Source: a virus
Reading direction: 5' to 3' (one strand)
Virus record (IMG/VR): IMGVR_UViG_3300025286_000118
Span: 1 to 26,322 of that record
DNA length: 26,322 nt
How positions within the stretch are numbered: the first letter of the stretch is position 1; every line of letters begins with the position of its first letter. The notes under the pieces are model-generated. The model made no database searches and had not been told where the DNA came from. It worked only from the letters and a program-made list of their open reading frames with translations. The position numbers and the translations under genes are program-made. Positions 17,934 to 22,993 of this stretch are shown here, piece after piece.

Positions 17934-19355
17934 CTAGGCTCTGGTTGCCAGGTTCACGAACGGGGTCACAGTGTTCGACCCGTTCCGTGGGGTAAGCGCC
18001 GAGTCGATCCACGGTCTGCCGGTCAACCGTTCGATGAATCTCCACTCCGTCTCGTCGGTGTTGAACCGGGTGTGCATCGAGCTCGCGATCTCCAAGCTCT
18101 GCCGGTCGCCGATCAGGTAGTAGCTCGGGTCGCAGAACACGATGTCTCCCGCGGTACCAAGGGTCTGCGCCTTCTCGGTAAAGAACACCGGGCGCCCGAG
18201 GATGGTCGCCGGGGGCCCGGCCACGCCGTTGTTGATCCAGACCGCAGACCCGCCGGTGCCGACGTTGAGGGCCATTGTTGCCAACTGAGGGAACACGTCG
18301 TTATGGGCGTACCAGATGGCCGATCCCAAGGACGCCGGGAGCATCCGGGAATACATCTTGACCAGGTTCTCCCAAACGAGCGTTGTAGCCGCTTGGCCGG
18401 TTTCTTTAGTCACGCTCACCAGCGCGTCAGCGTTGAGGATGCCGACGGGTTGGCCTGCACCGACGCCGTTGATGAAAGCGTCGTCCTCGAAGTACGCCAT
18501 CGCCTGGGCGAATAGCCTGTTGAGCACCGCCTCCAGGGAGATCGCACTGTCGCGGATCAACTCGTTCGCAACGCGAGTACCTCCCATCAACTTGCCAGCG
18601 TCCAACCGCACCTGTGAGAACGTAGGCTCGGTCTGCGTGAAGGATCCAGACTCCGGCGTCCAATACGCTTGGATGCCACCGAACACCGTGGAGCTGTGGG
18701 TCGTGTCGCGGATAGCAGGGATCCGGACTGTTAGCCCGGTCATGGGAATGACGAACGCCCGGCTCCGGATGAGGGCTTGCTCGAGGGCCAGGGATAGGAG
18801 CTGGACTCGGAACTCCTCCGGGACCAGGAATCCGCCCTGGTCGCCTTGGCTCTCGTTGAGGACTTTGGTCCGGGCTTCGGTCAGTCCCTTCAACCCCTGG
18901 CTTTCCCAGTAGTTATCAGTGACCGCCGCGGCCCCTTGGTAGAAATGGCCTATCCGTCCGAATAACCCGTCTAGGCGGGCGCCGTCGGATTCGGGCTCAT
19001 AAATCGACAGAGCCGCCGCGCGTTGTCCGGGCTTCATATCCCGGAACCACGCGAGCTCGCTGCCGCCGTTGTAGGCCATCTTGTTCGCGGTGATCTGGTC
19101 CATCGGTAACCGCTGGATCCCCTCTTTATGGAACCCTTGCTCCTCGAGGAACCCTGCGAGCCCCTTCTGGATGGCCTCCTTGCCTTGACCGACGAGGTCC
19201 GGGTCGTTTGAAGCGACCTCTTTGGCGTACTCGCCGACGAAGGTCTTAAGTCCGGCGGGGTCCATCATGAGGGCACGGACTTTCGCCTCGTCGTTGAGGA
19301 GCTCCTCTAGCTCTGACGCGCTTTCCGGGATGATCAACTCCACAGTCTTAGGCAT
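17934..19355 (-). CDS. Major capsid protein, HK97 fold
   Basis: A 473-residue protein starting MPKTVELIIPESASELEELL at 19355, with AGGAGG about nine bases upstream. Residues 1-165 form a charged helical region, probably the delta domain that acts as an internal scaffold and is removed by the protease. The capsid fold starts at GGFLVPEEF (174-182), followed by 'LALEQALIRSRAFVIPMTGLTVRIPAI', 'TFSQVRLDAGKLMGGTRVANELI', 'AQAMAYFEDDAFINGVGAGQPVGIL' and 'ILGRPVFFTEKAQTLG', all typical of HK97-type capsid proteins. The gene begins inside the end of the protease gene (8-base overlap), the usual order. Very sure. Confidence 0.95.
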   Translation of the reverse strand: MPKTVELIIPESASELEELLNDEAKVRALMMDPAGLKTFVGEYAKEVASNDPDLVGQGKEAIQKGLAGFLEEQGFHKEGIQRLPMDQITANKMAYNGGSELAWFRDMKPGQRAAALSIYEPESDGARLDGLFGRIGHFYQGAAAVTDNYWESQGLKGLTEARTKVLNESQGDQGGFLVPEEFRVQLLSLALEQALIRSRAFVIPMTGLTVRIPAIRDTTHSSTVFGGIQAYWTPESGSFTQTEPTFSQVRLDAGKLMGGTRVANELIRDSAISLEAVLNRLFAQAMAYFEDDAFINGVGAGQPVGILNADALVSVTKETGQAATTLVWENLVKMYSRMLPASLGSAIWYAHNDVFPQLATMALNVGTGGSAVWINNGVAGPPATILGRPVFFTEKAQTLGTAGDIVFCDPSYYLIGDRQSLEIASSMHTRFNTDETEWRFIERLTGRPWIDSALTPRNGSNTVTPFVNLATRA

Positions 19356-20207: not shown

Positions 20208-20259
20208 AAAAAAGGGTCCGACCCCACGCTCCGGTTTTCCCAACGTGGATCGAACCCTT
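20208..20259 (-). terminator. Strong intrinsic terminator just before the protease gene
   Basis: On the minus strand, 20250-20259 pairs with 20212-20221 (nine of ten bases) and CCACG/CGTGG (20224-20228 with 20244-20248) continues the stem. The stem is followed at once by a run of T (20208-20213 as A on the plus strand). It is a good Rho-independent terminator. It lies about 20 bases upstream of the protease ATG, inside what would otherwise be one head operon, so either the head genes have their own start, or readthrough is controlled here. Confidence 0.8.
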
Positions 20260-20444
20260 GGCTCTACAGATCGGCTCTGTGCTACGTGAGCACACCGCGC
20301 TTGGCGGCTGGCCGGGTCGCCTATTCAATTGTTTGGTTTTAGGACTCCCGGAGTTGAATGGCAGATGCCGGGCAGTCACTCAACTCCGTTGGTCGATGGA
20401 GTCCCCGATAAAAGGAGGTGACACTTGACTAGCAACAAGCGCCA
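20208..20444 (-). ncRNA. Candidate structured small RNA or leader between portal and protease genes
   Basis: No gene is visible on either strand in 20208-20480. The stretch has a promoter-like element at one end and a terminator at the other, and in between nested inverted repeats: GGACTCC (20342-20348) with GGAGTCC (20398-20404), CGGAGTTGA (20349-20357) with TCAACTCCG (20380-20388), and GGCA/TGCC (20360-20363, 20366-20369). Smaller hairpins are GTGCT/AGCAC (20279-20293) and ACAGA/TCTGT (20266-20280). The minus-strand transcript would also carry TCACCTCCTTT (20413-20423), like the 3' tail of 16S rRNA. It may be a free RNA of about 235 bases, or the attenuating leader of the protease-capsid genes. 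No known RNA family is recognised. Confidence 0.4.
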
Positions 20445-20450
20445 AGACGG

Positions 20451-20480
20451 ACGCTACCACAAGCGATGGTAGGGTGTCAA
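20451..20480 (-). promoter_or_regulatory. Promoter candidate for the structured RNA/leader
   Basis: On the minus strand TTGACA (20475-20480), a perfect -35 box, is followed after 18 bases by TAGCGT (20451-20456), with a TGn extension just before it. The -10 box itself is weak (three of six bases), so the case rests on the -35 and extended -10. It starts right after the stop of the NrdR-like gene and reads into the inverted-repeat region and the protease gene. Confidence 0.45.
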
Positions 20481-20723
20481 CTATTGGCTACCGGCGGTCG
20501 TAGTGGAAGAATACCTCATTGGACTTCCCGGGCGAAGGCGCTTCGGAGATCTTACTCGTCGCGTCAGATTATTGACGACGACCTCCTCGGTACTTATACG
20601 AAACCCGCAATCATCACATTCCCGGCGGCGGGTAATACGCGTAGGGAATGACCGCGAATCAACGACGCGTGTTGGACCGCCACAAAGATTGCACCGCCAG
20701 GATAAACCGCTACTACGTTTCAG
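20481..20723 (-). CDS. NrdR-type zinc-ribbon protein without canonical start, C-terminus overprinted on captured portal DNA
   Basis: After a TAG at 20724-20726 the frame reads LKRSSGLSWRCNLCGGPTRV, then VDSRSFPTRITRRRECDDCG and FRISTEEVVVNNLTRRVR to a TAG at 20481 (80 codons). C11, C14, C36 and C39 with VVDSR, RRREC..CG.R and STEE are the zinc ribbon of NrdR, the regulator of ribonucleotide reductase genes. The ATP-cone half of NrdR is absent. No ATG, GTG or TTG precedes the ribbon; a CTG at 20723 has GGAG seven bases upstream and is the likeliest start. The last 25 codons or so overlap DNA copied from the portal gene (20505-20557), read in another frame. It may be a functional small DNA-binding protein or a decaying gene. 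Confidence 0.6.
   Translation of the reverse strand: MKRSSGLSWRCNLCGGPTRVVDSRSFPTRITRRRECDDCGFRISTEEVVVNNLTRRVRSPKRLRPGSPMRYSSTTTAGSQ
20505..20557 (-). repeat. Captured portal gene fragment (deleted copy)
   Basis: Bases 20505-20533 match 22732-22760 in the portal gene (28 of 29) and 20540-20557 match 22794-22811 (18 of 18), same orientation and order. Between them six bases replace 33 in the portal gene, so 27 bases are missing, a multiple of three. In the portal frame the fragment still spells SKISEA and GKSNEVF, with a stop close by on both sides. The host gene here reads it in a different frame. Confidence 0.85.
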
Positions 20724-20899: not shown

Positions 20900-22993
20900 C
20901 TAAGCGATCAATATGAGGTTGCACCGGCGGCAGAAGTACCCGGCGCCGTCTCGGTTAGTGACCACCATGTCGGGCTTCCCACAGTGAGAGCAGACGCTCC
21001 GAGTCTCGGTCCGGTCGGGATCCCGCCGGTACCGGACGTTGCACCGGCAGTTGGGATGGGCCGGGATGGTGTCGAGCCCGTTGATGAAGGGATCCCCGAC
21101 CTTAATCCAGCCCTCGCCCTCGGCGTCCAGGCAAGGCGTACCGGCGCCAGTGGCGTCCACCACGTCGTCGCCCTGAGTGATCCACCGCTTCTGATCGAAG
21201 TCCTGGGCTTCGGCGGCTTGCTTGGCCCCCTGGCCCTGAGCGGTGGCCGTCTCGGTGCGGGCCACGACGCGAGCCTTCTCGGGACTGAAGGCCAAGTCCT
21301 CACGCAACGACTTCTGGAGCGTCGAGAGACTCTCGCCGTTCTCGATGGTCCGGGCTACCAAGACGTTGACCCGGTTCCGGGTCGCGTTCGTGAGGTTGAG
21401 ATTTCCGTCCGCACGTAGGAGCCGGGCTCCGCGTTCACGGGCGTAGGTAGCCGCGAGCTCCTGGGCGGTGACGAGAGACATAGCGGGAAACTGGTTGAGC
21501 ATCGCGATCCGGATCGATGCCTCGAGCTCCTCGATAACTTCCGGTCCGTACTTCGACCACCAATCCCAGTCGTACCCCTGGATGTCGGAGATCTCGATCT
21601 TAGTGGACACCACACTGAGCTCCAACGTGGGTTTGCCGAACTGTTCAAGGAACGCGACCAGCTCCGCGGCCTCTGCCGCTAACCGGCGCTTCCAACCGAG
21701 GAGCATCGCCCGCTCCGCGATGTCCTCCTCGGTGAGCGCCTTGGAATATTCTTGGGAATATTTGCCACCTGCTTTCACCCCAAGGGCGAAGGGCTCGCCC
21801 ATCATGGGCGCCGGGACCGAGACCTTGAACTCGTCACCCTCGGGGACTTCCTCCAGGTTTAAGAGGGCCCGCGCCTCGTTGAGCTTGTGTGTCCCCTTCT
21901 CGTACCCGGTAGTGGCCTCAGTGAGATCGAGCTCCCTGTTGTTGGGCGTCGGATCGTTGTACTCGAAATGGAGCCCACGGTCCGGGTAGAGCTTCAGGAG
22001 CTTCTCGTTGAGCGCCAGCCTAATCCGGTTCAATCGCGGTTTAATAGCCCACCGAGCAAAGATGAACTCTGCCGCCTGAGCGTTCGCTCGCGACGGCGCC
22101 TCCATGACACCGAGCATCGGGAGCGGTACGCCGTAGGCCGCGAGCACCATGTCCCGGACCTGGTCCCGCAACTGGACGAACTGCATGTCGCGTTGGGTAT
22201 ACTTCCGCTCAGTGAACTTCGCCCGCTCCAGGAATCCAATACGTCCGGCGTTGTTGGTACCCTGATGAAATTCCTTCCACCGCTCGACCAGCCTCTTGAA
22301 GTCAGGATCACTCATTGAACGGTCGGCCTCGATGATCCCCCCGGGCGTAGCGTCGTTGCGGAAGAACGCCCGGTTGTAGTTGGCCGCTTCTACCTCGGAG
22401 CCAAGGTCGAGGACTAGGGCCTGTATGGGGCCTTGCCCACGGTAGGGATCCAAGGGGTTGGGGCGCCGGATAAAGATCACGTCCTGGAGGTCCAGAGGGA
22501 TCCGCTCGCCCCCGAGGGTGTACCAGTACCCGAGGATGTACTCGTCATGGCTCTTGATCGGAGTCATGCGGTCGGGCCGGACAGCCCACATCTCGACGGG
22601 AATCCCGCTGTTGTTGCGGACCAAGACCCACCAACTCTCGCCGGTGAGCTCGAAGTGCTGTTGGCTCATCTCGAGGAAATCATGGCGCGTATCGAACTCG
22701 TTGGCCGAGTTCCACAGGGTAAGGGCCAGGTGGGAGAATACCTCATTGGACTTCCCGGGCCCGGCGTAGAGGTGCCACTCCGCAGACGCCACGGCTTCGG
22801 AGATCTTACTCACGGCGGCGTAGACCGAGCTGACCGTCGAGTAGGTATTCATCTGCCCGGCCATGCCAGCCTGTCCACCAACACCGAGGCCCGTGTTCGC
22901 GAAATTGACCTGCCCCTGAGCGACCTGGGGCGGGCGCTCTTGGTTGTGCGCCCGAGTCAGAACCAGATCTGAGAGCCGTTGAAGCATCGTCAC
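20900..22993 (-). CDS. Portal protein fused to a MuF-like minor head domain and a zinc ribbon
   Basis: A 697-residue protein with a GTG at 22993 and GGAGGT six bases upstream. Residues about 45-400 are an HK97-type portal: 'STVSSVYAAVSKISEAVASAEWHLY', 'ELTGESWWVLVRNNSGIPVEMWAVRPDRM', 'DVIFIRRPNPLDPYRGQGPI', 'FFRNDATPGGIIEADRSMS', 'VLAAYGVPLPMLGV'. Residues about 440-655 match the phage head morphogenesis (MuF) layout, with 'VARTETATAQGQGAKQAAEA' and 'TIPAHPNCRCNVRYR' (642-656). A last module CSHC (668-671) and CRRC (688-691) is a zinc ribbon. Portal and MuF are more often separate genes; a fusion puts both at the head vertex in one chain. It packs DNA with the terminase upstream. Confidence 0.9.
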   Translation of the reverse strand: MTMLQRLSDLVLTRAHNQERPPQVAQGQVNFANTGLGVGGQAGMAGQMNTYSTVSSVYAAVSKISEAVASAEWHLYAGPGKSNEVFSHLALTLWNSANEFDTRHDFLEMSQQHFELTGESWWVLVRNNSGIPVEMWAVRPDRMTPIKSHDEYILGYWYTLGGERIPLDLQDVIFIRRPNPLDPYRGQGPIQALVLDLGSEVEAANYNRAFFRNDATPGGIIEADRSMSDPDFKRLVERWKEFHQGTNNAGRIGFLERAKFTERKYTQRDMQFVQLRDQVRDMVLAAYGVPLPMLGVMEAPSRANAQAAEFIFARWAIKPRLNRIRLALNEKLLKLYPDRGLHFEYNDPTPNNRELDLTEATTGYEKGTHKLNEARALLNLEEVPEGDEFKVSVPAPMMGEPFALGVKAGGKYSQEYSKALTEEDIAERAMLLGWKRRLAAEAAELVAFLEQFGKPTLELSVVSTKIEISDIQGYDWDWWSKYGPEVIEELEASIRIAMLNQFPAMSLVTAQELAATYARERGARLLRADGNLNLTNATRNRVNVLVARTIENGESLSTLQKSLREDLAFSPEKARVVARTETATAQGQGAKQAAEAQDFDQKRWITQGDDVVDATGAGTPCLDAEGEGWIKVGDPFINGLDTIPAHPNCRCNVRYRRDPDRTETRSVCSHCGKPDMVVTNRDGAGYFCRRCNLILIA
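22732..22811 (-). repeat. Portal gene segment that has a second partial copy at 20505-20557
   Basis: This part of the portal gene (residues about 62-87) is the source of two blocks repeated in the NrdR-like gene 2.2 kb away: 22732-22760 and 22794-22811. The 33 bases between the blocks have no counterpart there. In the portal gene the reading frame is intact, so this is the parent copy. Confidence 0.85.

Follow-up and report, generated by a model that had tools for sequence, protein, structure and literature searches.

What does the gap between the portal and head protease genes of this phage contain, and does it control the head genes that follow? The window, by which we mean the whole stretch of 26,322 bases that was analysed, is a complete IMG/VR record and represents a phage genome or a fragment of one. 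Its head genes all lie on the minus strand, in the order methyltransferase, helix-turn-helix protein (possibly the small terminase), large terminase, portal-MuF fusion, head protease and capsid. The portal-MuF protein has a zinc ribbon at its C-terminus, for which the matches are weak and generic. Portal and protease genes are separated by 712 bases, and the downstream half of this gap is filled by a structured RNA unit (Table 1). A preliminary description of the sequence had called positions 20208-20480, between the portal side and the protease, free of genes, and we found no conserved ORF in the region of the RNA unit. The protease frame is open as far upstream as GTG 20379; an N-terminal extension from this codon was rejected, as the homologous proteases align from ATG 20187.

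The upstream half of the gap contains an NrdR-like zinc-ribbon frame of 80 codons (20481-20723, minus strand). It has no ATG, GTG or TTG start, just a CTG behind a GGAG, and was not seen in those homologous gaps that were read. Two pieces of the portal gene, of 31 nt (97% identity) and 18 nt (100% identity), recur here, window positions 22730-22811 corresponding to 20503-20557. This shortened copy falls within the last part of the NrdR-like frame, in a different reading frame, a short way ahead of the RNA promoter.

Table 1. Features of the portal-protease junction and the adjacent genes in the window, in the direction of transcription.
Feature	Position	Strand	Basis
Portal-MuF fusion, upstream gene	20900..22993	-	Pfam Phage_portal 4e-62, Phage_Mu_F 6e-10
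Sigma70-type promoter: -35 TTGACA (20480-20475), 18-nt spacer, extended -10 TGG-TAGCGT (20459-20451)	20451..20480	-	Read directly
Predicted transcript, ~237 nt	20208..20444	-	Start predicted from -10 distance; fold z = -3.6
5' hairpin TGGCGCTTG..CAAGTGTCA	20419..20444	-	Fold
Single-stranded TCACCTCCTTTT, anti-Shine-Dalgarno-like (16S rRNA end)	20410..20421	-	Sequence; function inferred
Hairpin H1, 7-bp GGACTCC/GGAGTCC around a 9-bp stem	20342..20404	-	Folds
Single-strand box ACAATTGAATAG, family consensus ACAACTGAATAARTA	20321..20332	-	Six-sequence alignment; recurs in unrelated phages
Helix H2, CGGC/GCCG, around two small hairpins in the window	20272..20314	-	Pairing across seven sequences
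Candidate antiterminator hairpin GAGCC-AAG-GGTTC, overlapping the terminator 5' arm	20252..20264	-	Folds without the terminator 3' arm
Intrinsic terminator with a 13-14 bp stem (20257-20214), ACCGGA in the loop (20235-20230) and a U tract of T6 (20213-20208)	20208..20257	-	Folds
Head maturation protease, 279 aa	19348..20187	-	PHROG 617 and 80 (head protein / head maturation protease); Pfam Peptidase_S78 weak; homologues aligned
Major capsid protein	17934..19355	-	Pfam Phage_capsid E = 6e-52; homologue alignment

The TTGACA and extended -10 that had been noted at one end of the stretch were found again on the minus strand. A generic sigma70 scan did not call this promoter at 20451-20480, because its -10 element is weak. 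The pattern TTGAC[AG]-N14/15-TGNTA has a single occurrence in the 26 kb window, both strands counted, which is at the RNA unit, and it is present in nine out of nine homologous units. The length of the predicted transcript agrees with the 235 or so bases of the preliminary description. Folded as the minus strand, the whole stretch reaches -106.5 kcal/mol (z = -3.5) and beats 200 of 200 dinucleotide shuffles, whereas the signal of the plus strand is weaker (z = -2.4). The RNA unit lies on the minus strand. No known family had seemed to fit this RNA, and Rfam 15 indeed gave no match above the gathering cut-off in the window or in the related sequences L003, L004 and L006; the best sub-threshold match in the region scored 17.2 of 50 bits, and a permissive E gave chance-level matches only. 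Neither ARAGORN nor Rfam found a tRNA or tmRNA cloverleaf in the window.

Homologues were gathered by protein-guided scans with the portal, protease and capsid, and the gap before the protease was read in each. A BLASTN search with the region found no match in the phage collection. In eight lineages the parts of the unit stand in the same order before the protease: the window, L004, L005 (the same as L006), L014, L129 (almost the same as L130 and L131), L323, L403/L404 and L405. L003 and L008 are identical to the window in the RNA region. All folds of the nine units beat dinucleotide shuffles (z -2.3 to -5.8), and mean column identity in a six-sequence alignment is 46%. As nucleotide conservation is otherwise low, the conserved parts are informative. 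Judged from the alignments and folds, promoter geometry, fold, H2 and terminator are kept while the sequence diverges, a degree of conservation beyond what chance would produce. L014 has the unit before its protease without any portal gene directly upstream, suggesting that the unit travels with the protease. A structured RNA that has its own start and stop signals, and that is found at the same place in relatives, is therefore probably a switch that sets when the head genes are read, or a small free RNA.

The hairpin at the 5' end is an extra of the window copy only and is not obvious in homologues. H1 was assessed through separate folds rather than covariation statistics, the structure calls being partly manual. 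Of the three-level inverted repeat (7, 9 and 4 bp) that had been described here, the 7-bp stem and the 9-bp stem (GGAGTTGAG/TTCAACTCC, with one G-U) are upheld, whereas the small inner stem is weak. Most homologues have a hairpin at the place of H1. In L403 and L404 this place is occupied by a tRNA-like cloverleaf (L403:4629-4700; Rfam tRNA 42.7 bits, no call by ARAGORN) with CAU in the anticodon loop and the T-loop TGCAACT, which directly adjoins the box. Furthermore, a tRNA-Leu-like stretch is located upstream of the box in L418, one of the unrelated phages discussed below, and H1 of the window begins with a 7-bp acceptor-like stem. These likenesses would suit a structural or assembly RNA, i.e. 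a packaging RNA or tRNA mimic made beside the head genes. We consider this highly improbable, given that other members have a plain hairpin at H1, that the RNA is similar to no Rfam family and that its position relative to the terminase is not kept.

The ACCTCC of the single-stranded segment is also found in L323 and L129, and related forms are found in L014 (ACCTCT) and in L004 and L005 (ACCTGC), always 5' of H1. Its presence in six members is consistent with a free trans-acting small RNA of ~237 nt, in which the anti-Shine-Dalgarno-like segment and the terminator loop would pair with other transcripts while the capsid genes are transcribed independently. The terminator is strong, and ACCGGA is kept in its loop, at the same distance from the end, in five lineages (the window, L129, L323, L403/L404 and L405) despite diverged stems; the default product of a leader would be such an RNA anyway. 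However, L403-L405 are without the ACCTCC-like segment, and even unrelated phages keep the unit in front of their head genes, a constancy needless for action in trans. A purely trans-acting RNA thus appears somewhat unlikely to us.

The inner four pairs of H2 are formed in all 28 cells of a seven-sequence comparison. Changes on both sides were found at four of the seven pairs, exemplified by T-A in place of C-G in L014 and C-G in place of G-C in L129. When the arms were re-paired at random, the observed number was reached in 1.8% of trials, a value that holds for seven sequences with relatedness ignored. Compensating changes in homologues had been proposed as a check on the structure; besides those in H2, the arms of the terminator vary among lineages, yet they pair in every one. 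The covariation of H2 may be taken as support for a conserved helix rather than as proof of it. Two other candidates were rejected: a triple-frame stop role for CTGAATAAGTAG, of which the window retains just two frames, and a pairing between ACAAC and the GUUG that follows the U tract, which shows no covariation.

The intrinsic terminator with its T-run was likewise located at the other end of the stretch, as described before. The sequence TTTTTTRTTG after a strong terminator hairpin is common to the homologous units (TTTTTTGTTT in L403). The distance from the U tract to the protease start is 20 nt in the window and about 15 nt in L405. This is so short that no promoter fits there, and transcription from upstream therefore gets to the protease only past the terminator. 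It follows that the genes would be fed either through an attenuator with read-through or by a polymerase that is already resistant, and either way the default product would be a short structured RNA. In L004, L005, L014, L129 and L323 a tiny zinc-finger-like frame (consensus CRQPWDDHD..GWMVCR) is found between terminator and protease; the window is without it.

The candidate antiterminator is mutually exclusive with the terminator and appears in the fold as long as the terminator 3' arm is still missing. Its pairs are GAGCC/GGTTC in the window, GAGCC/GGCTC in L323 and GAACC/GGTTC in L129, three sequences only. It has to be considered whether the region is a simple boundary: transcription of the portal operon would end at the terminator, and the promoter and a leaky terminator would fix the capsid level, with neither regulation nor an RNA function. 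No parts of the unit are better conserved than promoter and terminator, and in the more distant relative L346 the corresponding gap holds a plain terminator hairpin. Still, a promoter ahead of a terminator makes a poor boundary, and a boundary would leave the box, H2 (with its compensating changes) and the ACCGGA loop unexplained. We regard a simple boundary as distinctly unlikely.

The chances are about even, in our judgement of the sequence evidence, that the region is an attenuated leader of the protease-capsid operon, with a free RNA as its default product, working like pR'-6S RNA-tR' of lambda. The polymerase would start near 20444 and by default go no further than about 20208, where a short structured RNA would be released, and the head protease and capsid genes would be read once the polymerase passes the terminator. 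Box, H1 and H2 are the proposed sites where a phage or host factor lets it through, and in this subtype the small hairpin sequestering the terminator 5' arm may join in read-through control. We infer that such a factor regulates read-through and that the box serves as a site of antitermination; the roles given to the box and to ACCGGA are likewise putative. The earlier alternative of a free RNA or an attenuating leader is partly supported, with the leader somewhat favoured and the unit recurring in the same slot in other phages.

Streptomyces phage Dagobah, the closest isolated relative (portal 40%, capsid 47%), has no RNA unit at the portal-protease junction, and neither does a Gordonia phage related to L431, because their portal and protease genes overlap. 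The absence from Dagobah counts against the leader reading. Furthermore, head-gene transcription from the portal side may be generally antiterminated, or the capsid transcript may start inside the protease gene, which would count against a switch at this place. This phage RNA is conserved and unclassified, and it marks a point in virion production at which the making of head protease and capsid is decided. Were it an antitermination leader, late-gene control could be tested on it for uncultured phages, in which little regulation is known.

The viral collection was also scanned for AACTGAATAARTA followed by TTTTTTRTTG within 46-106 nt. The scan gave 22 stretches, and four were left after matches from the family and T4-like or coding matches had been removed; L432 was also set aside. 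A motif scan with 16 fixed bases was too loose. The match in L418 lies between the portal and an S77-type head protease, the one in L431 between the portal and a ClpP-type head protease, and the one in L420 has a P22-type portal on one side and, on the other, an unassigned gene that is followed by the major head protein. The fourth, in L430, precedes an HNH gene and the large terminase. That three of the four remaining matches fall in the portal/head slot, out of dozens, is unlikely to be due to chance, small as the number is. In L431 the box is located directly behind a sigma70 promoter, and a zinc-finger gene separates it from the portal. The portal of L418 (10432-12489, minus strand) is fused to a C-terminal 2'-5' RNA ligase-like domain. 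Cyanophage and T4-like matches (L417, L419, L421-L423 and L426-L429) were rejected; those examined overlap the end of an ORF (Thr-Glu-stop) and are outside the head slot. A box and terminator shared before non-homologous head proteases would point to a portable regulatory part, and if the host rRNA leader carries ACAACTGAATAAGTA, the box is probably a host antitermination site.

The three lineages without the ACCGGA loop carry another motif, GCCAGACGCTnnGACGCAGnGC, of which L004 and L005 have two copies each and L014 one exact copy. It recurs in an element that follows Cys_rich_KTR (PF14205) genes in Clostridia, consisting of AGAGCCAGACGC(N1-3)AGACGCAGAGCC and a terminator. Each of L004 and L005 has two occurrences of the core GCCAGACGCUnnGACGCAGnGC of this element, and L014 has at least one, whereas the window sequence is diverged (CCAGCCGCCAAGCGCGGTG). 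In Clostridia it is mostly small zinc-ribbon genes that carry the element, at their 3' ends. The motif was found in at least 120 genome stretches, not all of them clostridial or non-coding, and it is common in Clostridia behind Cys_rich_KTR genes. In a survey of one bacterial family, with genes drawn without using the motif (loci L440-L467), it is present, allowing up to three mismatches, in 20 of the 24 loci with a readable gene, and in nearly all of these a terminator hairpin follows immediately. The motif is kept when the reading frame changes and is hence a nucleic-acid element. The element was seen in L433-L467 and L201-L320, and in some loci its second half is the 5' arm of the terminator. 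A reading of KEPDAKTQSR as a recombinase tail proved wrong, as it is Cys_rich_KTR protein. The KTR element is a side result that may matter more widely.

In the prophages L079, L181 and L189 the KTR motif precedes the GP20 scaffold and capsid genes, which is the same slot. In L181 (10108-10263), RAGATH-21 and GP20-b RNAs are found in tandem between the KTR zinc-ribbon gene and the scaffold gene. Since part of the family has the motif found behind Cys_rich_KTR genes, a small zinc-ribbon protein could be the reader of the unit. Taken further, an undescribed RNA control module, made up of a promoter or tRNA mimic, the box, a hairpin and a terminator, might serve at the portal/head-gene junction of unrelated tailed phages as a general antitermination switch for head genes, with such a reader where the KTR motif is present. 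This wider proposal we think unlikely.

The box was also considered as a nut/boxA site and rejected. The boxA core (U)GCUCUUUA and its Firmicutes form UGUUCUUUGA are absent, all members are without UCUUU, and only the 3' flank ACAACTGAATA is similar. A T4-type late promoter TATAAATA was not found either, the window having TTGAATAGG. LoaP targets a UNCG-type hairpin in the leader, and no UNCG-type loop is present in the folds of the window, so a LoaP target was rejected as well (PMC12691694). Literature searches yielded nothing of use on the box sequence or the GP20 RNAs. GP20-b (RF03003) occupies the corresponding slot in L181, before the scaffold and capsid genes, but the window does not match it.

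In lambda nut and HK022 put, a short single-stranded box is followed by a hairpin, upstream of a terminator. The window unit likewise has a box and a hairpin before its terminator, although its box, ACAACUGAAUAARUA, is without the boxA core UCUUU and H2 is no known boxB. The late leader of lambda has a constitutive-looking promoter, pR', which gives a ~200-nt RNA (6S RNA, ~194 nt) ending at the intrinsic terminator tR', with the late genes behind it and antitermination by Q. There is no sequence relation between this leader and the window unit, and no Q-like protein or other antitermination factor (N or similar) was recognised among the genes examined. Furthermore, the window unit is located inside the structural cluster, between portal and protease, whereas that of lambda lies before the lysis genes. 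The two are nevertheless alike in having a promoter, a ~200-nt RNA, an intrinsic terminator and then late genes, and this arrangement, with the terminator within ~250 nt, is found in the window and seven further lineages.
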